Of a stretch of 64,000 nucleotides of DNA, positions 5,673 through 24,040 are shown piece by piece (positions within the stretch are counted from its first letter, which is position 1; each line of letters begins with the position of its first letter). A program made the translations under genes and the position numbers. The notes under the pieces are model-generated. The model had not been told where the DNA came from and ran no database searches. It worked only from the letters and a program-made list of their open reading frames with translations. The DNA comes from Nocardia cyriacigeorgica GUH-2 (GTDB lineage: Bacteria; Actinomycetota; Actinomycetes; Mycobacteriales; Mycobacteriaceae): contig NC_016887.1 in the NCBI RefSeq assembly GCF_000284035.1, positions 2,728,001 to 2,792,000 of the forward strand, written 5' to 3'.

Positions 5673-5752
5673 CTCGGCTCCCTTCGACAGTGGCGGAGCA
5701 GCAGCCGGCATCCCGGGTTCGGGTCAGCCTCGCATTCGCACGGGCCGGATTA

Positions 5753-5771
5753 CCTCACCCTCATTGGGTGA
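5753..5771. promoter_or_regulatory. Palindromic 19-bp box 1 (TTCACCC-N5-GGGTGAR)
   Basis: On the minus strand it reads TTCACCCAATGAGGGTGAG. It lies 80 nt before the SqdB-like start and 137 nt before the SulP start at 5909. It is one of nine aligned copies of the same palindrome in the window, and the only place where two copies share one intergenic region. Confidence 0.6.
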
Positions 5772-5806
5772 AACCACACGGTGGACGGTGGCGCCGCCGT
5801 CTGCCC

Positions 5807-5825
5807 GGTCACCCGCATCGGGTGA
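5807..5825. promoter_or_regulatory. Palindromic 19-bp box 2
   Basis: Reads GTCACCCGCATCGGGTGAT, with both half-sites intact except the first base. It is 83 nt before the SulP GTG at 5909 and 54 bp (about five helical turns) from box 1, centre to centre. A weak -10-like GACAGT follows about 22 nt downstream. Confidence 0.65.
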
Positions 5826-5884
5826 TGCGCACCGAACCCGGTCCGGGCGACAGTCGGAAGGGCCCACCGCGGAAGGAGCCGATC

Positions 5885-5905
5885 ATGACCCACGGGAGTA
5901 GCTGA
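5885..5905 (+). other. Six-codon ORF (MTHGSS) directly upstream and in frame with the SulP gene
   Basis: An ATG preceded by AAGGAG at ideal spacing (about 6 nt) opens a frame that ends at TGA 5903-5905. The SulP coding frame resumes in the same phase at GTG 5909, only 3 nt later. Either this is a minimal leader ORF whose termination feeds re-initiation, or it is the original SulP start interrupted by a nonsense codon. Confidence 0.45.
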
Positions 5906-5908
5906 GCT

Positions 5909-7585
5909 GTGCGGGGGCTGCCGCGGCGGCTGCGGGCCGTGCTGCCACGCGAACGCATGCGTAAGGCGGATGTGCTCGCGGGGTTGTCCGGTGCCATCGG
6001 CAGTGTGCCCGACGGTATGGCGGCGGGGGCGCTGGCCGGGGTGAGCCCGGTGCACGGGTTGTACGGGAGCATGGCGGGGCGGCTGTTCGGCAGTTTCACC
6101 ACGAGTACGCGGTTGATGGTGGTGACCGCGACCAGTGCGTCGGCGCTGGCGGCCGGGTCGGCGCTGACCGGGGTCGCGCCGGAGGATCGGGCGGCCGCGC
6201 TGACGATGCTGACGCTGATCGCAGGGGTGATGATGATCCTCGCGGCCGTCCTGCGGCTGGGCCGGTACACCCGGTTCGTCTCGCATTCGGTGATGACCGG
6301 ATTCCTCATCGGGGTGTCGGCGAACATCGTGTTCGGCCAGCTCGCCCAGCTGACCGGGGTACCCGCCGACGACGATCTCGCGGTCATGAAAGCCGTGCAC
6401 GTGCTGACCCATCCGGGCCAGATCGACTTCGCGTCGCTGACGGTCGGGGTGACGGCGTTCGCGCTGCTGGTGGGCCTGGGCCGGACCAGGTTCCGGCTGT
6501 TCGGGTCGCTGGCCGCGCTGGTGGTGCCCACCCTGATCGTGGTCGTCTTCGGCTGGGATTCGGTGGCGCGGGTCTCGGATGTGGGCCAGATCCCGACGGG
6601 GTTCCCGGTGCCACATCTGCCCGATCTCACGGTGCTCTCTCCCGGACTGATCGTCGGCGCGGCGGCGGTCACGGTCATCGTGCTCGTGCAGGGCGCGGGC
6701 GTATCGCAATCGGTGCCGAATCCCGATGGATCGCATGCGGATCCGAATCGCGACTTCCGGGCCCAGGGTGTCGGCAATATCGCCGCCGCGCTGTTTCGCG
6801 GCATGCCGGTCGGCGGCTCGGTCGGCCAGACCGCGCTCAACGCCACCGCCGGGGCACGCACCCGCTGGGGCGCGATCTGGTCCGGCATCTGGATGCTCGC
6901 CATCCTGGTGGTGTTCGCCCCGCTCGTCGGTGCAGTACCGATGCCGACGCTGGCGGCCGTGCTGATCCTGGCCGCGTTCGGCGCGATGGATCCGGTGCGG
7001 CTCTCGGCGATCTGGAGCAGCGGATCGACCTCCCGGATCGCGCTGGCCACCACCTTCCTGGCGACGCTGCTGCTGCCGGTCACCGCCGCCGTTGGCGTCG
7101 GGGTGGCGCTGTCGCTGCTGTTGCAGCTCAATCGCGAAGCCATGGACCTGAAGGTGGTGCGGCTGGCGGTGCGCGGCGATCATCTGGTGGAAGAACCCGC
7201 ACCGCGCCGGTTGATCGACGGCGAAATCGTCATCCTCGACGTGTACGGCAGCCTGTTCTACGCTGGCGCCCGCACCCTGCAAGCGCGTCTGCCCGATCCG
7301 AAGGGCGCCGACTCGCCGACGGTCATTCTCCGGCTACGCGGCCGCACCACCGTGAGCGCGACCTTCCTTGCCGTAGTCGCCGATTACGTGCGCCGCCTCG
7401 ACGAGGTGGACGGAGCGCTCTACCTCAGCGGCGTGGATCCGCGGGTGCGTGACTTCTGGACCGACGAACTGCTCGACAAACAGGGCGTGCGACTGGAATT
7501 CTTCCCCGCCACCCCGACCATCGGGGAGTCGACGCTGGCCGCTTACGCGCAGGCCCGGCTGCGTTCGGCCCGGCCGGGTGACTGA
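5909..7585 (+). CDS. SulP family anion permease with C-terminal STAS domain
   Basis: The full-length SulP protein has 558 residues. Around 10-12 membrane helices fill residues 20-400, with family motifs DVLAGLSGAIGSVPDGMAAGALAG near the start, GMPVGGSVGQTALNATAGARTR (core anion-site region) and LAALLILAAF-like helix text. A hydrophilic C-terminal STAS domain follows (EIVILDVYGSLFYAGART onward). The GTG start is the first in-frame start after a TGA; GGGAG lies 10 nt upstream, so translation may depend on the short leader ORF just before it. Two copies of the 19-bp palindrome precede it. Transport of sulfate or bicarbonate is typical of the family; the specificity is not visible. Confidence 0.85.
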   Translation: MRGLPRRLRAVLPRERMRKADVLAGLSGAIGSVPDGMAAGALAGVSPVHGLYGSMAGRLFGSFTTSTRLMVVTATSASALAAGSALTGVAPEDRAAALTMLTLIAGVMMILAAVLRLGRYTRFVSHSVMTGFLIGVSANIVFGQLAQLTGVPADDDLAVMKAVHVLTHPGQIDFASLTVGVTAFALLVGLGRTRFRLFGSLAALVVPTLIVVVFGWDSVARVSDVGQIPTGFPVPHLPDLTVLSPGLIVGAAAVTVIVLVQGAGVSQSVPNPDGSHADPNRDFRAQGVGNIAAALFRGMPVGGSVGQTALNATAGARTRWGAIWSGIWMLAILVVFAPLVGAVPMPTLAAVLILAAFGAMDPVRLSAIWSSGSTSRIALATTFLATLLLPVTAAVGVGVALSLLLQLNREAMDLKVVRLAVRGDHLVEEPAPRRLIDGEIVILDVYGSLFYAGARTLQARLPDPKGADSPTVILRLRGRTTVSATFLAVVADYVRRLDEVDGALYLSGVDPRVRDFWTDELLDKQGVRLEFFPATPTIGESTLAAYAQARLRSARPGD

Positions 7586-7590
7586 GTGGT

Positions 7591-7609
7591 TTCACCCCGA
7601 ACGCATGAG
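7591..7609 (+). promoter_or_regulatory. Palindromic 19-bp box 3 with -10
   Basis: TTCACCCCGAACGCATGAG: left half perfect, right half degenerate (GCATGA). A -10 hexamer TAGGGT at 7632-7637 (inside CCTAGGGT) follows 22 nt after the box, placing the box over the -35 region of the GAP gene at 7674. Confidence 0.65.
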
Positions 7610-7673
7610 GTGACCGGCCATCGCCGCTGCCTAGGGTGAGCTGCCGCGGTCGTACCGAGTCGAGGAGCCGAGC

Positions 7674-8339
7674 ATGGCGGACTTGTTGGTGGCGCTGCTG
7701 CCGGAGATGACCGGCCTGGTCGTCACACCCGGCGCGATCGCCGGATGCATCCTGCTGCTGCATTCCCGGCGCCCGGTCGGCAACGCCCTCGCATTCGGTG
7801 GCGCCTTCTTCGCCGTCTACGCGCTCATCGCGATCTCTGCGCTGCTGGGTGGCGCCTCCGATCCCGGCTCGACCTCCAAGGATGTCTCGCACGGCACGGG
7901 GTTGGTCGTCGGGCTGCTGTTCCTGCTCGCGGGTTTGTGGGTGCTGTTTCGCCGCCCGGCCGACCGGGTGCGCACCGAACCGCCGAAAATGCTGCGGGAA
8001 CTCGAAAGCAGCGGCCCGCAGCGCGCATTCGTGATCGGCATCGCTTTGGCTGTACTCAATCCCAACCTGTTCCTGATGATGTCGGGTATGAGCGCCATCT
8101 CCAGCTCGGACGCGAGCCCGTCGGCGGCGCTGGGTGCGACGGCGCTGCTGCTGCTCGCGGCATCACTGGACTTCCTCGTGCCGATCGCCGTCTATGTCAT
8201 TGCCGGCCATCGGGCCCAGCGCTGGCTCGACGCTATGCAGATCTGGATGATCCGCAACTCGCGCCCGATGACCCTGGCGGTGCTGTTCGGCTTCGGCGCA
8301 CTGTTCGCCGTGCGCGGCATCGTCGACTTGGCGGGGTGA
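7674..8339 (+). CDS. GAP family protein (SfLAP/Sap-type, LysE-like membrane protein)
   Basis: The integral membrane protein has 221 residues and about six helices, beginning LLPEMTGLVVTPGAIAGCILLL and containing the conserved NPN turn (IALAVLNPNLFLMM) of the GAP/Sap family. A mycobacterial relative, Sap, is needed for surface transport of sulfolipid-1 and other members act on glycopeptidolipid export, which gives the family its names. Here it lies between a SulP permease and an alkylsulfatase, each with the same palindromic box. The ATG at 7674 has GAGGAG about 7 nt upstream. A distant paralogue is at 18716. Confidence 0.8.
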   Translation: MADLLVALLPEMTGLVVTPGAIAGCILLLHSRRPVGNALAFGGAFFAVYALIAISALLGGASDPGSTSKDVSHGTGLVVGLLFLLAGLWVLFRRPADRVRTEPPKMLRELESSGPQRAFVIGIALAVLNPNLFLMMSGMSAISSSDASPSAALGATALLLLAASLDFLVPIAVYVIAGHRAQRWLDAMQIWMIRNSRPMTLAVLFGFGALFAVRGIVDLAG

Positions 8340-8347
8340 GCGCGCAA

Positions 8348-8366
8348 TTCACCCGGGACGGGTGAG
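8348..8366 (+). promoter_or_regulatory. Palindromic 19-bp box 4 with -10
   Basis: TTCACCCGGGACGGGTGAG, both half-sites perfect. TAGCGT at 8389-8394 follows 22 nt later as a -10. The predicted leader to the sulfatase ATG at 8510 is a little over 100 nt. Confidence 0.7.
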
Positions 8367-8509
8367 CCGCGACCCGCGAGCAGCGGCCTAGCGTTCGCCT
8401 CATCCGCTTCCGGCCGGCAGGCGCCGGGACCGAAACGACCCCGGTGCGGTCTGGTGAATCCGGGTCCTACGCGACAGCACACGTGACGACTCTCGAGGTG
8501 AGGAAACCG

Positions 8510-10327
8510 ATGACGACTCTGGACTTCGGCAATACGACCGACTTCGACAACGCCGACCGCGGATTCATCGGCGCCCTGGATCAGTCCGAGATCCGGACCG
8601 CCGACGGGCGGGTGATCTGGGACATCGGCGCGTACAAGTTCCTCTCCGGGGACTGCCCGCCCACCGCGAACCCGAGTCTGTGGCGGCAGGGCCAGCTCTG
8701 CAACAAACAGGGCCTGTTCGAGGTCACCGAAGGGATCTACCAGGTCCGCAATCTCGACCTGTCGAATATGACGCTGGTCGAGGGGCGCGAGGGCGTCATC
8801 GTGATCGACCCGCTGATCTCGGCCGAGGTGGCGTCCGCCGCCCTGGAGCTCTACCGCAAGCATCGCGGTGATCGGCCGGTGACCGGACTGATCTACACCC
8901 ACTCCCATGTCGACCATTTCGGTGGCGCGCGGGGTGTCGTTCCGGAGGGTCATGATCCGGTGCCGGTCCTGGCACCGAGTGGGTTCCTCGAGCATTCCGT
9001 CAGTGAGAACGTCTACGCGGGCAATGCCATGACCCGCCGCGCGATCTACATGTACGGCGCCGCGCTGGACAAAGCGCCCGACGGCCAGATCGGCTGCGGG
9101 CTGGGCATGACCAACTCGACCGGCACAGTGACCCTGATTCCGCCCACCGTCGACATCACCCACACCGGGCAGGTCGAGGAGATCGACGGTGTGCAGATCG
9201 TCTTCCAGCTCACTCCGGGCACCGAGGCGCCGTCGGAGATGAACTTCCTGTTCCCGGAACGGCGCGCGCTGTGCATGGCCGAGAACGCCACCCACAACAT
9301 GCACAACATCCTCACCCTGCGGGGCGCGCTCGTCCGCGACAGCCGGGTGTGGGCGCACTATCTGGACGAGGCCATCGGCATGTTCGCCGACAAGGCCGAT
9401 GTCGCCTTCGCCTCGCACCATTGGCCCACCTGGGGCAGCGAACAGTGGACCGAACTGCTGGCGGTGCAGCGGGACATGTACGCCTACCTGCACGATCAGA
9501 CCTTGCGGCTGACCAATCGTGGCCTCACCGGCACCGAGATCGCCGAAGAGCTCTCGCTGCCGCCGGCATTGGACGGTGCGTGGGCCAACCGGGGGTATTA
9601 CGGCTCGCTGAGCCACAACGTGAAGGCGATCTACCAGCGGTACATGGGATGGTTCGACGGCAATCCCGCGCACCTGTGGGAACATCCGCCGGTCGAGATG
9701 GCGACCCGGTATGTCGCCGACTACGGCGGTGTCGACGCGGTGGTCGCCAAGGCACGCGACTATGCCGCCGGCGGTGATCTGCGCTTCGCGGCGACGCTGC
9801 TCAACCACGCGGTCTTCGCCCAGCCGGACAGCGACTCGGCGAAACAGGCGCTGGCCGAGGTCTACGACAAGCTGGGCTACGGCGCCGAGAACGGCACGTG
9901 GCGCAATTTCTTCCTGGTCGGCGCCCAGGAGCTGCGGCACGGAGTCACCGCCACGCCCGTCGAAATGACCGATCCGGAAATGATGGCCGCCCTGACCGTG
10001 GACATGATCATCGACTCGCTCGCGGTCCGCATCGACGGCCCGCGCGCCGCCGAACTCAACGGCACGATGGACTGGAAGCTCACCGACGAGAACCGGGTCG
10101 TGCGGCTCACCCTGTCCAACGGCGCGCTGACCCACCGGACCGGAACCGACGCGGCGCCGCTGCGAGGCCCCGCGGATCTCACCCTGACCATGACGAAACC
10201 GCAGCTGCTCGCGCTGCTGACCGGAAAGAGCGAAGGGGTCGCCTTCGAAGGCGATCACTCGGTGCTCACCACCTTGGTCGGGCTGCTCGACACGCCCGAT
10301 CCGAAGTTCCCGATCGTCACGCCCTGA
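8510..10327 (+). CDS. Zn-dependent alkyl sulfatase (SdsA1/BDS1 family, MBL fold)
   Basis: The 605-residue enzyme belongs to the type III alkylsulfatase family, hydrolysing primary alkyl sulfates to alcohol and sulfate. The metallo-beta-lactamase signature is TYTHSHVDHFGG-like (IYTHSHVDHFGGARG, about residues 149-163). A later LCMAENATHNMHNI carries the metal-ligand Glu region, and SHHWPTWG supplies another His. The C-terminal 125 residues form the SCP2-like lipid-binding domain typical of this family. No Sec or Tat signal is seen, so it appears cytoplasmic. The ATG at 8510 is chosen for the GAGGTGAGG element just upstream and because the preceding codons are uncharacteristic. A strong hairpin follows the stop. 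Confidence 0.9.
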   Translation: MTTLDFGNTTDFDNADRGFIGALDQSEIRTADGRVIWDIGAYKFLSGDCPPTANPSLWRQGQLCNKQGLFEVTEGIYQVRNLDLSNMTLVEGREGVIVIDPLISAEVASAALELYRKHRGDRPVTGLIYTHSHVDHFGGARGVVPEGHDPVPVLAPSGFLEHSVSENVYAGNAMTRRAIYMYGAALDKAPDGQIGCGLGMTNSTGTVTLIPPTVDITHTGQVEEIDGVQIVFQLTPGTEAPSEMNFLFPERRALCMAENATHNMHNILTLRGALVRDSRVWAHYLDEAIGMFADKADVAFASHHWPTWGSEQWTELLAVQRDMYAYLHDQTLRLTNRGLTGTEIAEELSLPPALDGAWANRGYYGSLSHNVKAIYQRYMGWFDGNPAHLWEHPPVEMATRYVADYGGVDAVVAKARDYAAGGDLRFAATLLNHAVFAQPDSDSAKQALAEVYDKLGYGAENGTWRNFFLVGAQELRHGVTATPVEMTDPEMMAALTVDMIIDSLAVRIDGPRAAELNGTMDWKLTDENRVVRLTLSNGALTHRTGTDAAPLRGPADLTLTMTKPQLLALLTGKSEGVAFEGDHSVLTTLVGLLDTPDPKFPIVTP

Positions 10328-10342
10328 CGCGGCGTCGGTTCC

Positions 10343-10376
10343 GGGCCCATCCTCGGTGTATGCCGAGGGTGGGCCC
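10343..10376 (+). terminator. Hairpin terminator after the alkylsulfatase gene
   Basis: Arms 10343-10356 and 10363-10376 pair over 14 bp with one G-T wobble and a 6-nt loop. It is GC-rich without a clear T-tract, as is usual in actinobacteria. It separates the sulfatase from the regulator gene. Confidence 0.7.
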
Positions 10377-10515
10377 TTCGCCGTGCCGGGCAACGGTCAT
10401 ACGATCATCCGACGATGCGGAATCGAAATACCGCGACCCATTTTGAAAGGATCGCGTTCCGGTAAACTCCGGCGGGAGCAAGGTAGGTATTGAACCGTCA
10501 CGCGTCGGAGGCATG

Positions 10516-13146
10516 ATGGCTGGTTCGCACGACCTCGATTCGCATCATCCTGTGGGCCCGGCCGGCGGGCCCACTGATATTCCAGCACTGCCTTTCACGC
10601 CGATCCCGCGTCCCGCCCTTTTCACGGCGCTCGATGAATTCACCGCCACCGCCCAGGGGCGAGTGCTGATGATTTGCTCGCCCGTGGGGAGCGGAAAGAC
10701 CGTCCTGCTGGCCGACTGGGCCAGGCGGGTGAATCGCCACGCGCACAATCGGCCTCGCCTCGCCTGGCTCACGATCGCCGAACACCCCTACACCGCCGGG
10801 GGACTGTGGTCGGACCTGCGTCGCCGCCTCGGCCTCACACCGAAAACCTCCGATCGGCTGGCCACCCCCACTACCGAGGCGGCCGAACTCGCCGCCGATA
10901 TCGAACGGCTGGGCCGGCCGCGGATCGTCGTCCTCGATGACGCCCACCTGCTCACCGATCCCATGACCCTGGCCGGCCTCGAGCACCTGCTGCGGCATGC
11001 TCCGGCCAATCTCACCGTGCTGATCTGCGCGCGCTTCGACCCGCCCATCCGCTGGCATCTGCTCGAACTCGAGTCGCGCCTGATCCGCTGGGGCGCCGAC
11101 GAACTGGCGCTCTCGGCCGAGGAGTCGCGGCGCCTGTGCCGCGAACACGGCTGCGATCTCGGCGACGCGGAACTGGCCACGCTGATGGAGCTCACGCACG
11201 GCTGGGCGGCGCTGATCCGGATCGCCGCGATCTACCTGGCCGCCCATCCCGGCGATTACGCCACCGCGCTGGCCGTGCTGGCCCGGATGCCGAATTCGGT
11301 ATCGGATCTGCTGGTCGGCGAGCTGATCGACACCCTGCCGCCGGCCCTGCGCCAATTCCTCACCCACACCAGCGTGCCCACCGAGTTCACCGAGCAACTG
11401 GCCGACGAACTGGTCGGCGGCGGTGCGGCGTTCTGGCTGCATGAGCTGGAGCGGATGAGCTATCCGTTGACCGCCGTCGTCCGCGACGGCACGATCTGGT
11501 ACGCCTATCACCCTTTCCTGCGCGGCTATTTCCTCGCCGAGGTGAACCGCCTCGGCGCCGGCGTTCACGACGATCTGCGGTTGCGCACGGCGCGTTCGCT
11601 GACGTCGTCGGGTGAGTCCAGGCAGGCCGTCCCGCACCTGATCGCCCTGTCGGACCCGCGCCCTTTGCTGGAATTCCTGTCCACCCACGCGCTCGCCGAC
11701 ATCATCGCCGGTGACGGCCCGGCCCTGTTCGACGCACTCGCCCAGTCCGATGCCGTGGTGCTCGAGGACCCGTTCATCCTGCTGCTGCGCACCGTCGACG
11801 CGCTGCTGAGCGGGGATTATCCGGCGGCGCTGGCCTTCCGGGACGCGCTGCGCAGCCGGACCGAGGCGGGCACAACTCTGGCCGCGCCCGAGGTGGTCGC
11901 CGCGCTGACCGGTGCCGTCGACGCCGAAATCACGGTGGCCACGGCCGGTTCGGTGGCCGGACTGGAACTACCACCGATGCGCGTCTCGGCCGAGCGTCCC
12001 GAACTCGAGTGCTATCTCGCCATCGCCGCGGCCACCGTCGCGATCCTGCGCGATGAGATCGACGACGGTGAGCAGCGACTGCGGGTGGCGCTGGCGCTGG
12101 CCGAAACCGGCGCGCATCCGCGTCTGCGATTGCGGGCGACCACCCGGTTGGCGGTGGCGGCAGGGCGGGCCGGAGCCATCACGAATATGCGCCACCGTGC
12201 GGCGCGGGCGCTGGCGCTGGCCGGCGAGTTCGAGCTGTGGCAGACCCCGGACGCCGCGCACGCCGCGGCGCTCGAGGTTTTCGGCGCCTACCTGCAGGGC
12301 GATGTCCCGCCGTCCGGCCTGATCACCGAGTTGCTGTGCGAGTCCACGGGCCTGGACGGACCAGGTGCCGGACTGCCTGCTCGGATCGTGGGCCACCTGG
12401 CGAGCTTCGACCAGGCCACCGACCGGCGCATCACGGCGGATGTCCTGCGCAACGCGGCCGCGGAGCTGCTGGGCGTGCACCCCTCCGCCGCGGTGAGCGG
12501 CGGGTTGATTCCGCATGTGGTGTGGGCGCTGCTGCGGGTGCAGGAACCGCGGACCGCGCATCTGCTGGTCGAGCAGGCCCGCACCACCTTCGGTGACGTT
12601 CCGGATGTCGCGGTGGCCGCCGCCTCCGTGGCCACCGCCGCGCACCGGCCCAAAACCGTGCTGACGCTGCTGGAACCGATGCTGAGCGCGGCCGAACCAG
12701 CGCACCGGCTGCCCTTGGTCGCGGCCTGGTTGCTGACCGCCGGCGCCAACCACGAACTCGGCAATACGACCAAGGCCATTCACGCCATGGAAATGGCGGT
12801 ACGCAATGCGGCCCCCGAACGCCTGGTGCGCCCGTTCTTCGATATTCCTGGCGCGCTCGAGCAATTGGACGAATTCGCCGGAAGTTTCGGCACCGACGAG
12901 GATTTCGTGGCAGCGGTGCGCCGCAATTCCGCCGCGGCGCGTGAGCATCGCCATCCCGCGCTGACCACGACCCAGCAACGGATTCTGCGGCAATTACCCT
13001 CCGGCCGCACCACCCAGCAGATCGCCACCGATCTCGGCGTCTCGATCAATACGGTGAAGACCCATCTGCGCGGCATCTACACCAAGCTCGGCGTCAACTC
13101 CCGGACCGAGGTCCTGGTCGAAGCGCGCCGCAGCGGCCTGCTCTGA
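10516..13146 (+). CDS. Large ATP-binding LuxR-family regulator (LAL/MalT type)
   Basis: The 876-residue STAND-type regulator has a P-loop near residues 55-62 (SPVGSGKT) and a Walker B (RIVVLDDAH). A long helical sensor/TPR-like middle follows, then a C-terminal LuxR helix-turn-helix (TTQQIATDLGVSINTVKTHLRGIYTKLG). MalT-like proteins oligomerise on an inducer plus ATP and then activate promoters. ATG 10513 and 10516 are both possible; 10516 is preferred because GGAGG ends only 1 nt before 10513. It lies in the centre of the cluster carrying the 19-bp boxes but has no box of its own. It is the obvious candidate to read those boxes, but that is inference. Confidence 0.9.
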   Translation: MAGSHDLDSHHPVGPAGGPTDIPALPFTPIPRPALFTALDEFTATAQGRVLMICSPVGSGKTVLLADWARRVNRHAHNRPRLAWLTIAEHPYTAGGLWSDLRRRLGLTPKTSDRLATPTTEAAELAADIERLGRPRIVVLDDAHLLTDPMTLAGLEHLLRHAPANLTVLICARFDPPIRWHLLELESRLIRWGADELALSAEESRRLCREHGCDLGDAELATLMELTHGWAALIRIAAIYLAAHPGDYATALAVLARMPNSVSDLLVGELIDTLPPALRQFLTHTSVPTEFTEQLADELVGGGAAFWLHELERMSYPLTAVVRDGTIWYAYHPFLRGYFLAEVNRLGAGVHDDLRLRTARSLTSSGESRQAVPHLIALSDPRPLLEFLSTHALADIIAGDGPALFDALAQSDAVVLEDPFILLLRTVDALLSGDYPAALAFRDALRSRTEAGTTLAAPEVVAALTGAVDAEITVATAGSVAGLELPPMRVSAERPELECYLAIAAATVAILRDEIDDGEQRLRVALALAETGAHPRLRLRATTRLAVAAGRAGAITNMRHRAARALALAGEFELWQTPDAAHAAALEVFGAYLQGDVPPSGLITELLCESTGLDGPGAGLPARIVGHLASFDQATDRRITADVLRNAAAELLGVHPSAAVSGGLIPHVVWALLRVQEPRTAHLLVEQARTTFGDVPDVAVAAASVATAAHRPKTVLTLLEPMLSAAEPAHRLPLVAAWLLTAGANHELGNTTKAIHAMEMAVRNAAPERLVRPFFDIPGALEQLDEFAGSFGTDEDFVAAVRRNSAAAREHRHPALTTTQQRILRQLPSGRTTQQIATDLGVSINTVKTHLRGIYTKLGVNSRTEVLVEARRSGLL

Positions 13147-13169
13147 GACCGGCAAAGCCCACCCGCGAG

Positions 13170-13188
13170 TTCACCCCCGAGGGATGAA
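13170..13188 (+). promoter_or_regulatory. Palindromic 19-bp box 5
   Basis: TTCACCCCCGAGGGATGAA; the right half carries one G-to-A change. It lies 24 nt after the LuxR gene stop and 88 nt before the small ORF at 13276, the first gene of the pair with DUF389. The -10 is unclear (CACACT about 22 nt downstream). Confidence 0.6.
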
Positions 13189-13275
13189 GCCCTCGGGTCC
13201 GGTGCCGACCACACTCGACCGGAGCCCACCATTGCGCCGCGAGGACAGCACGCACCGAAGGGAGGCCGCGCCCCG

Positions 13276-13482
13276 ATGCCGATCCGCTACGAGTTCATCC
13301 TCGACGGGGAGCTGTCCGAACGCGCGCTCGCCGCGTTCCCCGAGCTCACCCCGGGGCGGCATCGACAGGGCACGACGGTGCTGTACGGGCCACTGACCGG
13401 ACCGACCGCGATGCGCACCATCCTCGCGCGCATCGACAACCTCGGGCTGACCCTGCTCGAGATGCGTCAACTACCCGATTGA
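13276..13482 (+). CDS. Small conserved-looking protein of unknown function
   Basis: The 68-residue protein starts MPIRYEFILDGELSERALAAF and ends LLEMRQLPD. It alternates short beta-like and helical segments (IRYEFIL, SERALAAF, TTVLYG, AMRTILARI, LTLLEM), suggesting a compact ferredoxin-like or ACT-like fold. This is inference; the family is not recognised. GGGAGG lies about 11 nt before the ATG. It stops 11 nt before the DUF389 gene and follows a 19-bp box, so the two are probably one transcript. It has no signal peptide or membrane segment. Confidence 0.65.
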   Translation: MPIRYEFILDGELSERALAAFPELTPGRHRQGTTVLYGPLTGPTAMRTILARIDNLGLTLLEMRQLPD

Positions 13483-13493
13483 AGGGGGCGGCC

Positions 13494-14459
13494 ATGCATC
13501 TGCTGGTACCGGCGAGTCAGCGGCGCACGCTCGACGAACTCACCGATCGGCTCGATCTCGGCGTCGGCGAGACCACCTCCAAGCGGTCGGCGTTCTGGAT
13601 CATGCTCACGCTCTCCGGGATCATCGCCGCCTCCGGTGTGGTGGGCGATTCGACCGCGACGGTCATCGGCGCCATGATCGTCGCACCGCTGTCGGTGCCG
13701 ATCCTCGGGGTGGGGCTCGGCATCGCGACCGGGCGCGGACCGTTGATCGCGCGCAGCCTGCTGCTGGTGCTGGCGGGCATCGTGCTCGTCGTGCTGGTCG
13801 GATTCCTGTTCTCGCAGTTGCTGCCCAACCCGACGAATGTGCTGTCGAATTCGCAAGTGCTGGGCCGCACTTCGCCGAAGCTGATGGATCTCACCGCGGC
13901 GCTCGCCACCGGGTTGGTCGGCGTCATCGCGATCATCCGCCGCGATGTCGGCGATGTGCTGCCGGGCGTGGCGATCGCCATCTCGCTGGTGCCGCCCTTG
14001 GCGGTGGTCGGGGTATGCCTCGGATCCGATGCCCCGGGTCTGGCGCTCGGCGCGTTCGTGCTGTTCGCCTCCAATATGGTCGCGATGATCATCACCGCGA
14101 CCCTGGTGCTGGTGGCGACCGGATACGCGCGCGAAGCCGGCACCGCGGCGGTGCGCCGCGGCCGCGCCTACGCGGTGCTGGCGGCCGGGCTGATCCTGGT
14201 GGCGGTGCCGATGGTGGTGAACTCGCTGTCGTCGCTGTGGGCCGACCAGATCGCCGACGCGGCCCGCTCCTGGCTCGATGACGTCCCCGGCGCCCAGATC
14301 ACCGACGTGAGCCTGCAGAACGACGCGGCGACCATCCACGTGCTGGCCCCGGACCAGTTACCGCCGGTCGACGAGCTCGAGCGCGCGGTCCGCGATCTGG
14401 TGCCGTGGCATCCCGAGGTGATCATCGTGCACACCGTCGGCAGCCGGATCATCCGGTAG
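13494..14459 (+). CDS. DUF389 domain membrane protein
   Basis: The 321-residue protein has a DUF389 core of about six to eight membrane helices. Typical motifs are FWIMLTLSGIIAASGVVGDSTATVIGAMIVAPLSVPILGVGLGIATG near the N-terminus and GVIAIIRRDVGDVLPGVAIAISLVPPLAVVG further on. The C-terminal 60 residues are soluble (QITDVSLQNDAATIHVLAPD). Function in bacteria is poorly defined. The start at ATG 13494 fits GAAGGGGG immediately upstream and sits 11 nt behind the small upstream ORF, so translation is probably coupled. It belongs to the group of membrane genes sharing the palindromic box. Confidence 0.85.
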   Translation: MHLLVPASQRRTLDELTDRLDLGVGETTSKRSAFWIMLTLSGIIAASGVVGDSTATVIGAMIVAPLSVPILGVGLGIATGRGPLIARSLLLVLAGIVLVVLVGFLFSQLLPNPTNVLSNSQVLGRTSPKLMDLTAALATGLVGVIAIIRRDVGDVLPGVAIAISLVPPLAVVGVCLGSDAPGLALGAFVLFASNMVAMIITATLVLVATGYAREAGTAAVRRGRAYAVLAAGLILVAVPMVVNSLSSLWADQIADAARSWLDDVPGAQITDVSLQNDAATIHVLAPDQLPPVDELERAVRDLVPWHPEVIIVHTVGSRIIR

Positions 14460-14465
14460 CGCGGT

Positions 14466-14484
14466 TTCATCCGTTTCGGGTGAC
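14466..14484 (+). promoter_or_regulatory. Palindromic 19-bp box 6
   Basis: TTCATCCGTTTCGGGTGAC; one transition in the left half, right half perfect. It begins 6 nt after the DUF389 stop codon and lies 64 nt before the DUF7144 start at 14548. A possible -10 (CATACCT region) lies 21-27 nt downstream. Confidence 0.65.
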
Positions 14485-14547
14485 GCGGCGGCCACCGGCA
14501 CTGCGGCATACCTGTACTACGGCCGATCACCGAGGAAAGGGCTGGCC

Positions 14548-14961
14548 ATGACACAGATGACAGAACCCCGGCGCAATCCGGTGCGCCAGGGCGTCGCCGC
14601 GGTGACGACGATCGCCGTGGCGGTGCTGCTACTCGTCCTCGGCGTGCTGTCGATCGTCGAAGGGGTCTCCGCGGTCGCGAACGACGAATTGCTGGTCGAG
14701 GGACCGGAATACACCTACCAGTTCGATATGACGACCTGGGGCTGGATCCATATCGTGCTCGGCGCGCTGATCGCGCTCACCGCGCTGGCGCTGATGACCG
14801 GCGCCGTCTGGGCCCGGATCACCGCGGTGTTCCTGGCGGGACTGTCGATCGTGGCGAATTTCCTGTGGATTCCGTACTACCCGTGGTGGTCGTTGCTGGT
14901 CATCGCGCTCAACATCGTCGTGATCTGGGCGGTGTCCACCTGGCGGACCGGAGAGGTGTAG
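14548..14961 (+). CDS. DUF7144 family four-helix membrane protein (copy 1)
   Basis: The 137-residue integral membrane protein has four hydrophobic segments. A conserved extracytoplasmic loop carries YTYQFDMTTWGWIHIVLG, and the last part reads ANFLWIPYYPWWSLLVIALNIVVIWAVSTW. The paralogue at 19443 shares the same TTWGWIHIVLG and YYPxWSxLxIALNIVVIWAV signatures, so the two are clearly homologous. Function is unknown. An AGGAAAGGG element precedes the ATG. It heads a run of three closely spaced genes with DUF6325 (3 nt away) and SHOCT (31 nt away). Confidence 0.8.
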   Translation: MTQMTEPRRNPVRQGVAAVTTIAVAVLLLVLGVLSIVEGVSAVANDELLVEGPEYTYQFDMTTWGWIHIVLGALIALTALALMTGAVWARITAVFLAGLSIVANFLWIPYYPWWSLLVIALNIVVIWAVSTWRTGEV

Positions 14962-14964
14962 CCC

Positions 14965-15387
14965 ATGTCCGATGCAACCGAACTCGGCCCGGTGGAGATG
15001 GTGGTGCTCGCGTTCCCGGGTACTCGCGTCGACGCCGCCGTCACCTCGGCCCTGGCCGAGGTGGTCGACCGCGGTTATGTCACGGTGCTCGACCTCATCT
15101 ATCTGGCCATGGACGACGCCGGCGTGGTCCGCCAGATCGAAGTCGACGAATCGCTCACCGAGACCGGCCTCGACGGCGTCACCGTCGATCCGCGCGGTCT
15201 GGTCAGCGATGCGGACCTCGACGTGGTGCGCGAGGCGATGGACCCGGGGACCTCGGCGGTGGTGATCGTCTACGAGGAGAGCTGGGCCCGCAAGCTGGCC
15301 GGCACGGTACGCGGCGCAGGCGGCGAGGTCGCGTTGCATGTGCAGATTCCGCGCGACGCCGTCGACGCGGCGCTGTCGGTGTCATAG
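14965..15387 (+). CDS. DUF6325 family protein
   Basis: The 140-residue soluble protein has the pattern of DUF6325/DUF1269-like stress proteins: GPVEMVVLAFPG at the N-terminus, a central VLDLIYLAMDDAGVVRQIEVDE, an acidic middle (DADLDVVREAMDPG), AVVIVYEESWARKLA, and a C-terminal helix. It starts 3 nt after the DUF7144 stop, so it is probably co-translated with it. Function is unknown; close family members occur beside SHOCT-domain proteins in many actinobacteria, as here. Confidence 0.75.
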   Translation: MSDATELGPVEMVVLAFPGTRVDAAVTSALAEVVDRGYVTVLDLIYLAMDDAGVVRQIEVDESLTETGLDGVTVDPRGLVSDADLDVVREAMDPGTSAVVIVYEESWARKLAGTVRGAGGEVALHVQIPRDAVDAALSVS

Positions 15388-15418
15388 AGCAGAGTCGATG
15401 GAATAGAGGAGGGCGGCA

Positions 15419-15748
15419 ATGGTTTTCCGTGGAGGACGGGTCGGGCGGCCGGGGCTGCTCGGCACCATCGCGCGCACGGCCGTGATTTCCGGGACCGCGC
15501 GGGCGACGGCGAATGCCGTGGATCGACGTGCGCAGCGGCGCGCGGCGGAGAGCCAGGCCTACGCCGCCCAGCAGCAAGCGCCGCCACCGATGCCCGCCGC
15601 GCCACCGCCCATGCCCGCGGCCCCGCCACCAGTGCCCGCTGGTGGCGACGATCTTGTCGCCAAGCTCCAGCAGCTGGGCCAGTTGCGTGATTCCGGCGTG
15701 CTGTCCGAGGAGGAGTTCGCGGCGGCGAAGCAGCAACTACTGGGGTGA
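15419..15748 (+). CDS. SHOCT domain protein
   Basis: The 109-residue protein has a basic N-terminal third (GRVGRPGLLGTIARTAVISGTARATANAV), an Ala/Gln-rich linker, and three near-identical Pro-Met-Pro-Ala-Ala repeats around residues 58-76. The SHOCT domain at the C-terminus reads LVAKLQQLGQLRDSGVLSEEEFAAAKQQLL. SHOCT is a short helical oligomerisation or targeting module. It follows DUF6325 by 31 nt with GGAGG just before the ATG and is probably in the same operon. Confidence 0.85.
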   Translation: MVFRGGRVGRPGLLGTIARTAVISGTARATANAVDRRAQRRAAESQAYAAQQQAPPPMPAAPPPMPAAPPPVPAGGDDLVAKLQQLGQLRDSGVLSEEEFAAAKQQLLG

Positions 15749-15847
15749 CACCGCGCTGCTTCGCCACGTCGAATCCGCCTCCCACCGGGCACGGCGAATA
15801 TCGCGGCAGGCCGGTGGAATTGGCCTGATGCACCGAGGAGGTCACCG

Positions 15848-16996
15848 ATGGGAGCCCAGGATTCGGCGCGAGTGGTGCGGTCGTCCCCGCCGCCCTGGGC
15901 CATCCCGCGCGGCCTGATCGTCCTGCTGGCAATCGCCGCCGCGGTGATCGTGGTGGCCGGAGCGAAATCGTTCGCGGGCATCATCGGCCCGGTGTTCCTG
16001 GCCTTGATGCTCACCATCGCGGTGCAGCCGGTTCAGGTGTGGGCCCGCAAGCGCGGCTGGCCGGGGTGGCTGGGAATGGTCGGCGCGCTGGTCGCCGTCG
16101 TCGCGATTCTGCTCGGATTGATCGGTGCGCTGCTGCTGTCGGCGGCTCAGCTCGCGACCGAACTACCGAAATACACCGACAGTCTGGACGATCTGCTCGC
16201 GGGCGTGCGTTCGAGGCTCGCGGATGCGGGGATCGACGACGAGCGAATCAACAACGCGCTCAGCGGAATCGATCTCGGCAAACTGGTCCGCCTCCTCGAT
16301 GACGTGCTGGCCGGGCTGCTGGGCATCTTCTCCAATGTCTTCTTCCTGCTGGCATTGCTGCTGTTCATGGCTGTCGACGGGATGACGATCAGCGCCAGGA
16401 TGCGGCTTGTCGAACGGGTCCGGCCCGATATCGCCTACGCGCTGGGCCGCTTCGTGGTGGGCACCCGCAAATACCTGCTCGTCTCCACGGTGTTCGGCCT
16501 GATCGTCGCCGTGCTCGACGGTGGGGCGCTGTGGTTGCTCGGGGTGCCGCTGCCGGTGCTGTGGGCGATCCTGTCGTTCATCACCAACTACATTCCCAAT
16601 ATCGGGTTCGTCATCGGCCTGATCCCGCCGGCGCTGCTGGCGTTGCTCGACGGCGGTCCGATGGCGATGGTCTGGGTGATCGTGGTCTACAGCGTCATCA
16701 ATTTCGTGATCCAGTCGATCATTCAGCCGAAGTTCGTCGGCGATGCCGTGGGATTGAGTGTCACGGTGACCTTCTTGTCGCTGGTGTTCTGGTCCTGGGT
16801 ACTGGGTGCGCTCGGCGCGTTGCTGGCCATCCCGTTGACGCTGCTGGTGAAGGCGCTGCTGCTCGATATCGACCCGTCGACGCGGTGGGTGGACGCGTTG
16901 ATCGGCGGGGGAGCGCCCGAGGACGGCGAGCCGGAGGAACCGGTCGCCTCGCCGAAATCCACTGAAGACAAGTCTGCGACAGCGGATTCGGAGTAG
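15848..16996 (+). CDS. AI-2E family transporter (PerM/TqsA type)
   Basis: The 382-residue protein is predicted to span the membrane seven to eight times. It has the family pattern: paired N-terminal helices (GLIVLLAIAAAVIVVAG, AGIIGPVFLALMLTIAV), a long amphipathic extracellular segment, then AILSFITNYIPNIGFVIGLIPPALLALLDGG and FVIQSIIQPKFVGDAVGLSVTVTFLSLVFWSW. Characterised members export autoinducer-2 or act as Na+/H+ antiporters; the substrate here is unknown. A GAGGAGG element precedes the ATG. No 19-bp box was found in the 100-nt gap upstream, so it may be read through from the SHOCT operon. It is convergent with the next gene, 13 nt away. Confidence 0.85.
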   Translation: MGAQDSARVVRSSPPPWAIPRGLIVLLAIAAAVIVVAGAKSFAGIIGPVFLALMLTIAVQPVQVWARKRGWPGWLGMVGALVAVVAILLGLIGALLLSAAQLATELPKYTDSLDDLLAGVRSRLADAGIDDERINNALSGIDLGKLVRLLDDVLAGLLGIFSNVFFLLALLLFMAVDGMTISARMRLVERVRPDIAYALGRFVVGTRKYLLVSTVFGLIVAVLDGGALWLLGVPLPVLWAILSFITNYIPNIGFVIGLIPPALLALLDGGPMAMVWVIVVYSVINFVIQSIIQPKFVGDAVGLSVTVTFLSLVFWSWVLGALGALLAIPLTLLVKALLLDIDPSTRWVDALIGGGAPEDGEPEEPVASPKSTEDKSATADSE

Positions 16997-17009
16997 GGCT
17001 ACTGCGGAG

Positions 17010-18719
17010 TCAGCGGTCGAGGCGCTCGATGGCCTCGCGCACCGTCGGGTACACCGGCACCTGCTCGGCACCGGAGGCGCTGCGCCCGAGGGCATCGCGG
17101 AATTGGCCGACATCGCGCGCCACCGCGAACTCGATCCGCCGCCGGGCCAGCGTGGTGCGCAGTTCGGCCAGCATCTGCGCGGCGGTCACGTCGATGACGG
17201 GAGAGGTCTCGGCATCGAGGACGACGAGCTTGGTCCGGTCGGTGCACTCGTCCTCGATGTGCTGCTTGACGTAATCGGCATTGGCGAACAACAACCCGGA
17301 CTCCACCCGCACCACCAGCACATCGGGCCGTCGTTCGAGATCCGGGCGGCGTTCGGCGTCCACCCAGCGGCTGCCCTCCTTGGCCAGGGTCGCGATATGC
17401 GGCTGTGAGGTGCGGTAGAGCAGCAGCAACATCGACACCCCGATGCCGATGATCAGCCCGGGCAGGGTGTCGAACAACAGCACGCCCGCCATGGCGGCGA
17501 TGGCGGCGAGGAAATCGGCGCGGGCGGCGTGGCCGTAGATGCTGCCCAGCCGCGCGGTCCACACCCGGTAGAGGCGGCGCAACGCGTCGAGATCGACCAG
17601 TTCGATGACCGCGGCGATCACCACACCGGCCAGCGTCGCTTCCGGCAGGTTCTCGAACAGACCGGTGAGGAACAGCAGCGTCAGCACGACGAGCACGGCG
17701 ACCACCAGCCCGCTCAGCTGGGTTTTCGCACCGGCACTGCCGTTGACGGCGGTCTTGGACAGGCTGCCGTTGACCACCATGCCCGATCCGAGCCCGGACC
17801 CCAGGTTCGCCGCACCGAGCCCGAACAGCTCCCGGTTCGCGTCGACCTCGTATCCCGCCTTGGCCGCATAAGTTTTCGCGGCGCCGAGCCCCTCGGCGAA
17901 TCCGATCAGCAGCACCCCGACCGCGGGACCGAGCAGGTCGATGAGGTCGCCGGCGCCGATTCCGTCCGGTAGGCCGACCGCGGGCAGCCCGGCGTCGATA
18001 TGGCCGACAATGGCGACCCCGTGCTCATCGAGGTCGAACAGCGTCACCGCGGCGATGCCCAGCAGCACCGCCAGCAGCGAACCGGGCACGAGCGGTAGCC
18101 AGCGTTTGAGCCCGAGCACCACCGCCAACGACAGCACGCCGATCAGCAGTGTGCGCCAGTGGGTGTCGCCCAGATGCCGCAGGACGCCCCACGCCTGCTC
18201 GAAGAAGTTGCCCGGCTCCTTCTCGATGCCGAACAGTTTGGGCACCTGGCCGATGATGATCGTCAACGCCAGGCCGACGATGAACCCCTTCAACACCGGT
18301 TCGGAGATGAACGCGGCGATGAACCCCAGCCGGATGAGCCCGGCGATCAACCCGACGATGCCGGTGGCGATGGCCAACGCGGTCGACAAGGCCACGAAGC
18401 GGGCGCCGTCACTGCCGGCCAGCGGGGTGATGATCGCTGCTGACAGCGCCGCCGTCGCCGACATCGGGCCCACCACCAGGTGCCGGGAACTGCCGGCCAG
18501 CGCGTACAGCACCAGAGAGGGGATCGCCGCGTAGAGGCCGACAACCGGAGGCACCCCGGCGATGGAGGCGTAGGCCAGTGCTTCGGGCACCAGCACCGCC
18601 CAGACCGTCAGCCCGGCCAGCACATCCGCGCGCAGCCAGCCGCGGCGGTAGTGCTGCAACGACAGGAACACCGGCCATGACCTGGCCGGTGTCGGTTCAC
18701 CGCGCTGGGCATCCATCAC
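17010..18719 (-). CDS. SulP family anion permease with STAS domain
   Basis: The 569-residue SulP transporter starts RRGWLRADVLAGLTVWAVLVPEALAYASIAGVPPVVGLYAAIPSL and contains LGLGAANLGSGLGSGMVVNGSLSKTAVNGSAGAKTQLSGLV. The C-terminal STAS domain is VLVVRVESGLLFANADYVKQHI to the end, including VVLDAETSPVIDVTAAQML. ATG 18719 overlaps the stop of the GAP gene by 4 bp, so the pair is translationally coupled and expressed from the box upstream of 19375. The transported anion is unknown. Confidence 0.9.
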   Translation of the reverse strand: MMDAQRGEPTPARSWPVFLSLQHYRRGWLRADVLAGLTVWAVLVPEALAYASIAGVPPVVGLYAAIPSLVLYALAGSSRHLVVGPMSATAALSAAIITPLAGSDGARFVALSTALAIATGIVGLIAGLIRLGFIAAFISEPVLKGFIVGLALTIIIGQVPKLFGIEKEPGNFFEQAWGVLRHLGDTHWRTLLIGVLSLAVVLGLKRWLPLVPGSLLAVLLGIAAVTLFDLDEHGVAIVGHIDAGLPAVGLPDGIGAGDLIDLLGPAVGVLLIGFAEGLGAAKTYAAKAGYEVDANRELFGLGAANLGSGLGSGMVVNGSLSKTAVNGSAGAKTQLSGLVVAVLVVLTLLFLTGLFENLPEATLAGVVIAAVIELVDLDALRRLYRVWTARLGSIYGHAARADFLAAIAAMAGVLLFDTLPGLIIGIGVSMLLLLYRTSQPHIATLAKEGSRWVDAERRPDLERRPDVLVVRVESGLLFANADYVKQHIEDECTDRTKLVVLDAETSPVIDVTAAQMLAELRTTLARRRIEFAVARDVGQFRDALGRSASGAEQVPVYPTVREAIERLDR

Positions 18720-19375
18720 AAGCCGCCGATGCCCTTGCCGAGCACCACTGCACCCATCACCAGCAGCACGATGGCCATCACGAGGTGGTTGTTGTCCTGG
18801 AGCCAGACCTTCATCGCGTCCAGCCCGCCGCGCAGCCGGTCGGCAGCCACCGCGTATCCGATGACCGGCACCAGCACCGTCGACGCCGCCAGCACGGTGA
18901 AGATCAGCACCGCGACCACGTCACCGCCGGCCGCGAGCCCGCCCGTGCCGATCACCACACCGGCGGACACGCACAGCAGCAGGTTCTTCGGGTTCACCGC
19001 CGACAGCAGCACCCCGAGCCCGGTGGCCTTGCCGAACCCGAACTGGTCGATGGCTTTCATCCAGCCGGGCTCGGCGGTGTCGGCGCGGTCCATCCACTGC
19101 TTGGCGGCCAGGCCGATGAGCAGCACGCCCAGGACGATCTTGACCCAGGAGGCGGCCGCGGAGGGCTGGTCATCGGTGGAGTCGCTCAGCGTCCCGGACA
19201 ACGCGACGAAGAGGCCGGTCACCACCAGGATGCCGATCACCCAGCCGAGGCCGAAGCCGGTGCTGGTCTTGCCCGCGTCGGCCGACAGCAACATCAGGAT
19301 GGCCGCCACGATCGGAATCGGCGAGATCGCCACTCCGACAGCCAAGGGGAGGAGATCGCCGATTACGGAGCCCAT
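18716..19375 (-). CDS. GAP family membrane protein (SfLAP/Sap-like, copy 2)
   Basis: The 219-residue membrane protein has six predicted helices, starting VIGDLLPLAVGVAISPIPIVAAILMLLS with the conserved NPKN turn (LLSAVNPKNLLLCVSAGVVIG). It is a divergent paralogue of the protein at 7674 and, like it, is next to a SulP permease. The start lies 33 nt inside the 19-bp box, with the -10 hexamer TAGGTT between, so the leader is very short. It is first gene of a two-gene operon with the SulP permease. Confidence 0.8.
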   Translation of the reverse strand: MGSVIGDLLPLAVGVAISPIPIVAAILMLLSADAGKTSTGFGLGWVIGILVVTGLFVALSGTLSDSTDDQPSAAASWVKIVLGVLLIGLAAKQWMDRADTAEPGWMKAIDQFGFGKATGLGVLLSAVNPKNLLLCVSAGVVIGTGGLAAGGDVVAVLIFTVLAASTVLVPVIGYAVAADRLRGGLDAMKVWLQDNNHLVMAIVLLVMGAVVLGKGIGGL

Positions 19376-19408
19376 ACCGGCAACCTAGGTGGACACGGCG
19401 GCCGCCGA

Positions 19409-19427
19409 ATCACACGTTGCGGGTGAA
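19409..19427 (-). promoter_or_regulatory. Palindromic 19-bp box 7 with -10
   Basis: Minus strand TTCACCCGCAACGTGTGAT. On the same strand CCTAGGTT starts 19 nt after the box; the TAGGTT hexamer (19381-19386) is only about 5 nt from the GAP start at 19375, predicting a nearly leaderless transcript. Confidence 0.65.
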
Positions 19428-19442
19428 ACGGCGGCGCCAGGC

Positions 19443-19853
19443 TCACATCCTCGCGGGGTCCCACGTGGTGACGGCCCAGATGACGACGATGTTCAGGGCG
19501 ATGATCAGAATCGACCACAGCGGGTAGTAGGGCAGCCAGAGGAAATTGGCGATGATCGACAGCGCCGCGATGGTCACCGCCGCGACGCGGCCCCAGGTCG
19601 TCCCGGACATCAGGCCGATCGCCGAGATCACCAGCACGATACCGAGGACGATGTGGATCCAGCCCCAGGTGGTGGTGTCGAATTCGTAGACGTATTCGAT
19701 GCCGACGACGAACAGTTGATCCTCGGCGACCGCCGAGATGCCTTGGAGGATCGACAGCACGCCGACGGTGAGCAGCAGAATCGACGCGCCGATGGAGGTC
19801 CCCGCCGCGAAGCCCTGCTTGACCGGAGAGTCGGTTTCCGAGGAGTGCGACAT
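19443..19853 (-). CDS. DUF7144 family four-helix membrane protein (copy 2)
   Basis: The 136-residue homologue of the 14548 protein has the same architecture: a short polar N-terminus, helix 1 (GASILLLTVGVLSILQGI), the loop EYVYEFDTTTWGWIHIVLG, then ANFLWLPYYPLWSILIIALNIVVIWAVTTW. By eye more than half of the residues agree with copy 1. GAAGGGATGAACG lies just before the ATG. It has its own box (19916-19934). It ends 15 nt before the box 7 palindrome of the downstream GAP-SulP operon. Confidence 0.8.
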   Translation of the reverse strand: MSHSSETDSPVKQGFAAGTSIGASILLLTVGVLSILQGISAVAEDQLFVVGIEYVYEFDTTTWGWIHIVLGIVLVISAIGLMSGTTWGRVAAVTIAALSIIANFLWLPYYPLWSILIIALNIVVIWAVTTWDPARM

Positions 19854-19915
19854 CGTTCATCCCTTCGTGGGGTGCGGATAGTGATCCGAATGTGCCCGAC
19901 TCCAGGCGTGATGGC

Positions 19916-19934
19916 TTCACCCGTCGAGGGTGAT
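19916..19934. promoter_or_regulatory. Palindromic 19-bp box 8
   Basis: TTCACCCGTCGAGGGTGAT on the plus strand, both half-sites perfect. It lies 62 nt before the DUF7144 start at 19853 (minus strand) and 186 nt before the mycolyltransferase start, so the DUF7144 gene is the likelier target. Confidence 0.7.
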
Positions 19935-20030
19935 GACCGGGCCGATTCGGCGGTCTGAAGTGGGGAAGGGGCGTCTGGCGGCCCTGCGTTGGCCTTTTTG
20001 TCGCTGATACCAGCCGCGGGGCGAGCGGTG

Positions 20031-23546: not shown

Positions 23547-24040
23547 TGGCCGCCTCCCATATTCATCGCACGGTTCGGCCCGGTCTGCTGCTGCACGTCG
23601 CCGATTCCGCCGGGCATCATCGGACAAGGCGGGATGAAAATGTACTCACGAATTCACTGCCGGTAGCGGCGAATAATCGCGGCCGACGGCTGTGTGTATT
23701 GCGATCGACGCGACGATACAACTCGGTCCGCCGCGTTCTGAGCCGGACCGCTTCGATTTCTGTGACCTCACAACACAGGCCCGTAATCGGTTGTGACGCA
23801 TGTGCATCGGCGCGCCTGGCACGGTCGAGAGCTCCTGAACCTGCGGGCGGTCTGGTGGACGATCACAAGCCGCGCCGGTTTGTGCCCGTGGAGTTGCCCA
23901 ACCTCCGTCGAATCGTTTCCATACCGTTTCATTCGGTCATAGTTTGGGCCGCATCGGTCGACTGCGTAGGGCCGCATGAGACGAGTGTGATCGCCGAGAG
24001 CGTTGGGGCGATCACCATTACCGAGACACCGGAGGAATGT
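23547..24040. other. 494-bp divergent regulatory region between MmpL and PKS
   Basis: No convincing gene lies here, although an uninterrupted frame continues upstream of the PKS start. It contains the 7-bp inverted repeat at 23768-23796, and the sequence drops in GC around 23930-23950 (TTTCATTCGGTCATAG), a plausible PKS promoter. GGAGGAA at 24031 is the PKS ribosome binding site. Confidence 0.5.
23768..23796. promoter_or_regulatory. Inverted repeat TCACAAC-N15-GTTGTGA
   Basis: Perfect 7-bp arms (23768-23774 and 23790-23796) roughly 29 bp apart end to end, about midway between the divergent starts. Arm spacing suits two helical turns, as for a dimeric regulator. No local regulator gene is paired with it. 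Confidence 0.4.

Follow-up and report, generated by a model that had tools for sequence, protein, structure and literature searches.

Palindromic boxes of the form TTCACCC-N5-GGGTGAA precede most transcription units of a 14-kb membrane-protein cluster in Nocardia cyriacigeorgica GUH-2, which lies within the 64,000-nucleotide (nt) stretch analyzed here (positions 2,728,001 to 2,792,000 of contig NC_016887.1; hereafter the window). On comparative evidence, we consider it very likely that these palindromes are the operators of the MalT-like large ATP-binding LuxR-family (LAL) regulator encoded in the same cluster, which would bind over the -35 region and activate the box-bearing genes. We conclude that the boxes form a genuine and conserved operator system. 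Its kind is known already, the lineage is new, and for its gene set we found no description. The original prediction, which was made from the DNA alone and proposed an activator site over -35 for the cluster regulator, is well supported by the intergenic bias of the boxes, their spacer, their dependence on the regulator, and the offset of the -10 element, but it had missed prior work on a similar system.

We defined the box core as TCAYCC-N5-GGRTGA and the full box as the 19-mer, with dinucleotide shuffles as controls. The window contains seven exact cores, whereas 100 shuffles gave 0.05 on average and never more than 2, and nine cores with at most one mismatch, whereas 30 shuffles averaged 0.6 and never exceeded 3; six of the exact cores fall in the stretch 5700-20000, where 1000 shuffles gave a mean of 0.005. 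The nine cores comprise all eight copies that had been proposed and one further copy at 44185, distant from the cluster. Since a scan allowing one mismatch adds 44185 alone, the earlier list, although visual and non-exhaustive, was nearly complete for the window. Six of its coordinates were right, but copies 1 and 2 begin at 5754 and 5808 rather than 5753 and 5807, and the left half that was described as near invariant is degenerate in the copy at 19409 (ATCACAC), as is the right half in the copy at 7591 (GCATGAG), with one core mismatch each. The G at position 13, said to be constant, is present in 98% of 114 sites (the loci of 40 relatives plus the window, orientations pooled). A scan of the whole chromosome (6,194,645 bases), which had been suggested as a check, returned 10 exact cores, six of them in 5700-20000, and none for the reversed pattern. 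The three exact cores outside the window are C1:1380951, C1:2893443, and C1:2275630, the second of which (L090:4944) lies 216 nt upstream of a DUF1254/DUF1214 gene. A site at 51401 with two mismatches is probably due to chance and was excluded from the counts.

The box is conserved among relatives. We compared 40 Nocardia loci around regulator homologues, with genes called by a codon-usage script written for this analysis, and 80 named loci kept from 110 relatives that were retrieved with the regulator minus its helix-turn-helix as the query; the kept relatives are all Nocardia, the closest being N. cyriacigeorgica at 83%, and the assemblies are partly shared between the two sets. Allowing two mismatches, the 40 loci contain 105 boxes in 110,445 bp of intergenic DNA versus 6 in 607,164 bp of coding DNA, with at least one box in 38 loci, and the 80 named loci contain 150 exact boxes in intergenic versus 3 in coding DNA, with at least one in 69 loci. 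An equal motif density in coding DNA, named beforehand as evidence against a regulatory role, was not observed. After coding sites were removed (as also for the consensus, genome-average, and hexamer-offset counts), a scan of spacers from 0 to 20 gave 82 exact inverted copies at a spacer of 5 and at most 2 at any other, compared to at most 7 for directly repeated half-sites and at most 2 for everted half-sites at any spacer (both strands summed for the latter two). Together, the shuffles and the spacer control rule out a chance origin of the boxes. The pooled consensus of the 114 sites, both orientations included, is TCA(C 71%, T 29%)CC-(G 74%)-nnn-(C 74%)-GG(G/A)TGA.

The boxes also stand at a fixed distance from a -10-like element. 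In 54 of 58 boxes with a gene on a single side (a 59th with a truncated tail was removed), a hexamer nAnnnT begins 22 or 23 nt past the 19-mer, whereas other two-position windows average 1.9 and reach at most 7. For 53 two-sided boxes, which give 106 directions, the hexamer starts at 22 or at 23 in 27 directions each, with a maximum of 12 elsewhere, and 27 of the 29 rows outside Nocardia, representing 26 of 28 distinct places, show the same offset, with a maximum of 5 elsewhere. The -10 hexamers noted originally exist, but 22-23 nt past the 19-mer and not 20-22. Eight of the nine window boxes carry the hexamer on the side of their assigned gene. Box 5754-5772 has the minus-strand hexamer GAGGCT (5726-5731), directed towards an epimerase gene, and box 5808-5826 the plus-strand hexamer GACAGT (5849-5854), directed towards a SulP permease gene; since these hexamers point opposite ways, the pair appears to serve two divergent promoters. 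Boxes 7591-7609, 8348-8366, 13170-13188, and 44185-44203 are accompanied by TAGGGT (7632-7637), TAGCGT (8389-8394), CACACT (13210-13215), and TAGCGT (44225-44230), respectively, and the second of these has an additional, chance-like hexamer at 24 on its opposite side. On the minus strand, box 19409-19427 has TAGGTT at 19382-19387 and box 19916-19934 has CACATT at 19889-19894, towards a DUF7144 gene and away from an esterase gene. When the hexamer is taken as -12 to -7, the 3' end of the core is placed at about -35 to -36, and where a box stands 33 nt before the ATG, which is the case for the second SfLAP gene (18716-19375), a leaderless transcript starting at the ATG would be predicted.

Boxes are tied to particular gene families. 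In the 40 loci, leaving out genes with less than 120 nt upstream, a box precedes 25 of 26 genes for a 68-amino-acid (68-aa) protein, 29 of 33 for DUF7144 (one mismatch within 300 nt), 12 of 14 for PLDc_N-SHOCT, 13 of 16 for alkylsulfatase, 9 of 12 for SfLAP, 6 of 8 for LapA-like, 3 of 5 for DUF6325, 22 of 40 for the LAL regulator, and 2 of 4 for DUF1269 proteins, compared to 10 of 380 other genes in the same loci; none of the seven DUF389 genes has one. The esterase gene at 20190-21233 was considered as a target of box 19916 and rejected, with no hexamer on its side and a box at only 1 of 9 homologues. Of 25 genomes searched, 9 carry an orthologue of the TM198-like gene (44266-44919) behind the distant box, and 7 of these 9 orthologues have a box at most 450 nt upstream, one of them at 401 nt. 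One TM198-like orthologue (L269) carries an in-frame TGA.

Box number follows the presence of the regulator. Of 59 genomes of the genus, the 45 with a close homologue (best E value at most 1e-100) average 8.2 exact boxes and the 14 without one average 2.2 (Mann-Whitney p 1.4e-6, kinship not corrected), with reversed-pattern control means of 0.29 and 0.36, respectively. The same dependence is seen for DUF7144 genes: in contrast to those in the regulator loci, none of 16 such genes in 13 genomes without a close regulator has a box, ten of these being divergent (34-38% identity to the window's) and six reaching 55-62%. DUF7144 genes located away from the regulator, in ten hand-chosen regulator-bearing genomes, have a box in 10 of 25 cases. 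When 200 genomes were sampled at the order level, the regulator was found at E 1e-60 or better in three, namely, its own genome and two congeners, and in none of the remaining 197, so at this level of similarity it looks confined to Nocardia, with more distant relatives elsewhere. In one genome (G028; L041, L070), the regulator frame is broken by a TAG and was called as two pieces, and this genome has two exact boxes.

Beyond Nocardia, we found DUF7144 (E at most 1e-15) in 105 of 296 genomes of the class, and mean exact boxes rise from 0.91 in the 191 genomes without it to 2.89 in the 64 with one copy and 7.29 in the 41 with two or more. The correlation between box number and copies (Spearman 0.57) has a p value of 2e-27, which overstates the evidence because the genomes are related; the per-genome reversed control was at most 3. 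The exact core is present in 12 of 30 short stretches (3.0-3.3 kb) that were fetched around the best DUF7144 matches blind to boxes, 29 of them from other genera. We also examined 20 longer DUF7144 loci from other genera, of which 14 were picked for a known core or near-core and six were picked blind. An exact box is present in 14 of the 20 (27 intergenic sites and 3 coding) and in 2 of the six blind picks, and 12 of the 20 encode a LAL-sized MalT-like protein, with two more showing a helix-turn-helix match alone. Two loci have the regulator and DUF7144 with no exact box (L213, L224), and two have a box with no regulator within the stretch (L216, L225). A further set of 20 stretches was hand-picked, not random, and genomes G416 and G447 were chosen for high box counts. 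In a genome of family f34, selected for its 19 boxes, about 30 kb hold the regulator, box, 68-aa protein, DUF6325, SulP, SfLAP, DUF7144, and DUF1269 together, as labeled by BLAST. Together, these comparisons provide evidence that other actinobacterial families also have the regulator, the box, and DUF7144. Family f33 (L214, L218, L219, L220, L223) carries a variant box, TCACCT-N5-GGGTGA, before the 68-aa gene. In a genome of family f41 (L221:10721-16136), exact boxes stand beside genes for a P-type cation ATPase, a GCS2 ligase, and a class II glutamine amidotransferase.

The regulator has 877 aa, with AAA_22 at 49-161 and GerE at 816-869, in line with the LAL domain plan and size near 900 aa. 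Its alignment to MalT (8bob, E 3.4e-24) includes a Walker A stretch, GSGKT, and it shares with E. coli MalT an NTP-binding domain, MalT-like repeats (Pfam TPR_MalT, below cut-off), and a C-terminal LuxR helix-turn-helix, with 24% of 368 aligned columns identical, and 34% of 79 in the helix-turn-helix region. On the NCBIfam MalT equivalog model NF003420, it scores 169.3 bits versus a cut-off of 537. To judge from these likenesses, the protein probably works like MalT, though it is not classed as MalT. The boxes of E. coli MalT are directly repeated, unlike the Nocardia half-sites, which are inverted at a fixed spacer and show no preferred spacer as direct repeats. No maltose genes were detected by Pfam among the 20 open reading frames scanned (2579 to 23262), the one part of the genome in which they were sought.

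The original prediction linked the motif and gene set to no described regulon. However, the same palindrome, spacer, and promoter position are described for the MalT-like regulon of Actinoplanes sp. SE50/110 (PMC7567727). In the passages of that paper on this regulon, MalT (ACSP50_3915) controls a "maltose-regulated large genomic region," parts of which are present in other Micromonosporaceae and whose transcription is higher on maltose, and TCATCC-5nt-GGATGA lies over the -35 region of 17 starts at 34.4 +/- 1.0 nt from the start, compared to about 35-36 predicted in Nocardia. In the malT deletion mutant, 42 of 51 genes are lower, indicating activation, and the palindrome is likened to the E. 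coli MalT box GGA(T/G)GA (PMC7567727), which the half-site GGRTGA of Nocardia also resembles. The two systems share the palindrome, the 5-nt spacer, the box over -35, a MalT-like LuxR regulator encoded in the region, and numerous genes of unknown function, among them membrane- or transport-related ones. On the other hand, Actinoplanes belongs to another order and family, its named functions lean to amino-acid metabolism, its palindrome has T at the degenerate position where C is commoner in Nocardia, and DUF7144, SfLAP, alkylsulfatase, SHOCT, and the 68-aa protein set the Nocardia genes apart from those in the same passages (PMC7567727). When compared with Table 1 and the text of PMC7567727, the gene overlap is a class II glutamine amidotransferase, in the f41 genome, and none in the window cluster. 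The Streptomyces regulators SCO0877 and SCO7173 are likewise LAL proteins, but phosphate starvation and actinorhodin control are named in the title of PMC3282765, whose passages concerning them give no binding palindrome. We found no further description of the motif or the gene set, and no mention of DUF7144 or DUF6325, in the literature searched, with preprints and most subscription journals outside it, and the Nocardia gene set may be undescribed.

Several observations weigh against assigning the boxes to the cluster regulator. Two of the 40 regulator loci (L076, L081) have no box at two mismatches and 11 of the 80 named loci have no exact box; box 14466-14484 has no nAnnnT hexamer at the expected offset; boxes precede only 4 of 15 AI-2E and 4 of 16 SulP genes; and 15 of the 25 DUF7144 genes distant from the regulator lack one at one mismatch. 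A broad, dispersed regulon in the GUH-2 genome was also considered and rejected: of the three exact cores outside the window, the one compared among homologues, C1:1380951 by an ABC1-like kinase gene, is matched by a box with one mismatch at 1 of the 30 homologues fetched. Many of the compared loci come from close relatives, and since these genomes are related, the counts are not independent events. The recognition helix resembles that of MalT, but this likeness proves little since LuxR proteins generally have such a helix. Lastly, genomes without a close regulator still average more boxes than their reversed control (2.2 versus 0.36), and this excess suggests that another protein may also use the motif. 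It is conceivable, though unlikely, that such a protein, for example a two-component LuxR-type response regulator or a LAL paralogue, binds the boxes throughout and that the cluster LAL is merely a co-regulated neighbor. Further, weaker regulator relatives exist, with 9 to 16 matches per genome, and the box upstream of 22 of the 40 LAL genes is what would be expected of a mere target. However, box number tracks the cluster LAL, DUF7144 genes are boxless where a close regulator is missing, regulator and box co-occur in other families too, and the recorded users of such half-sites, in the passages of PMC7567727, are MalT-like proteins.

The position of the box over -35 is, as geometry by itself, also compatible with repression, in which the regulator would block RNA polymerase until an inducer releases it. 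We regard this as highly improbable, since a repressor would not require the distance from box to -10 to be fixed within one base, as it is, and the MalT-like regulator of Actinoplanes activates, as its deletion mutant indicates (PMC7567727). That the palindromes, as mostly intergenic inverted repeats, are RNA hairpins (terminators or leaders) or a selfish short repeat is scarcely credible, given that their place upstream of the -10-like element puts them outside the predicted transcript, that their middle spacer bases vary, and that they are tied to specific gene families.

Pfam scans of the 20 open reading frames and of further genes bore out the families that had been assigned behind the boxes. 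The NAD-dependent epimerase/dehydratase gene (4473-5711, minus strand; Epimerase) is a candidate target of box 5754 by its -10 geometry. On the plus strand follow genes for a SulP permease (5909-7585; Sulfate_transp), a Sap/SfLAP membrane protein (7674-8339; SfLAP), an alkylsulfatase (8444-10327 as called, with the start perhaps at 8483; Alkyl_sulf_dimr, Alkyl_sulf_C), and the proposed box binder, the LAL regulator (10513-13146; AAA_22, GerE), which has no box immediately upstream in this genome. Box 13170 was taken to precede the DUF389 gene directly, but a small gene that had been overlooked, encoding the 68-aa protein (13276-13482), intervenes, and DUF389 (13494-14459) is the second gene after this box. 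Next are DUF7144 (14548-14961), DUF6325 (14965-15387), and SHOCT (15419-15748), which probably form one operon, the first two being separated by a 3-base gap; an AI-2E gene is also on the plus strand. On the minus strand, a second SulP permease gene (17010-18719; Sulfate_transp) overlaps the end of the second SfLAP gene by 4 bases, probably as one operon, and a second DUF7144 gene lies at 19443-19853. The distant plus-strand target at 44266-44919 encodes a TM7S3/TM198-like membrane protein (Pfam E 2.3e-4, below the curated cut-off). Directly past the cluster is a very large open frame of 2267 aa (23699-30502, plus strand).

The 68-aa protein is a conserved neighbor of the regulator with no Pfam or NCBIfam match. 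Across 110 loci from Nocardia and other genera, its family occurs at 67 places, 55 in Nocardia and 12 elsewhere (one of them a fragment), and 57 of the 67 have a box within one mismatch. An AlphaFold2 model shows a beta-alpha-beta-alpha-beta order with a predicted local distance difference test score of 90.7, and Foldseek returned no match for it at E 0.001 or below, with weak ferredoxin-like resemblances (best E 0.012). A tentative possibility, which we think less likely than its alternatives, is that the regulator, the box, DUF7144, SHOCT-type proteins, and this ferredoxin-like protein make up one ancient, undescribed actinobacterial stress switch, extending from Nocardia to several families, in which the 68-aa protein would tune the regulator.

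Returning to the cluster regulator as an activator, we infer direct binding of its LuxR-type helix-turn-helix domains, two of which would occupy the paired GGRTGA half-sites, spaced by roughly one helical turn. Once bound, the regulator would take the -35 position and recruit RNA polymerase to the -10 element 22-23 nt past the box, thereby activating transcription, and, as in a MalT-type STAND ATPase, the binding of a small inducer would turn it on. The predicted regulon would comprise DUF7144, SfLAP, SHOCT, DUF6325, SulP, alkylsulfatase, DUF389, the 68-aa protein, and the TM198-like protein, from which we infer a role in an envelope or ion-homeostasis response.

What is new here is the Nocardia regulon and its gene set, the putative 68-aa partner, the conserved distant target of box 44185, and the recurrence in other actinobacterial families. 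These findings provide an operator, a regulator, and a list of targets that can be put to the test for the DUF7144, DUF6325, SHOCT, SfLAP, and DUF389 membrane proteins, for which we found no description of function. The fixed geometry permits the prediction of transcription starts, leaderless ones included. Altogether, our findings suggest that the experimentally studied Actinoplanes region exemplifies a regulon more widespread among actinobacteria, in which the promoter plan is fixed.

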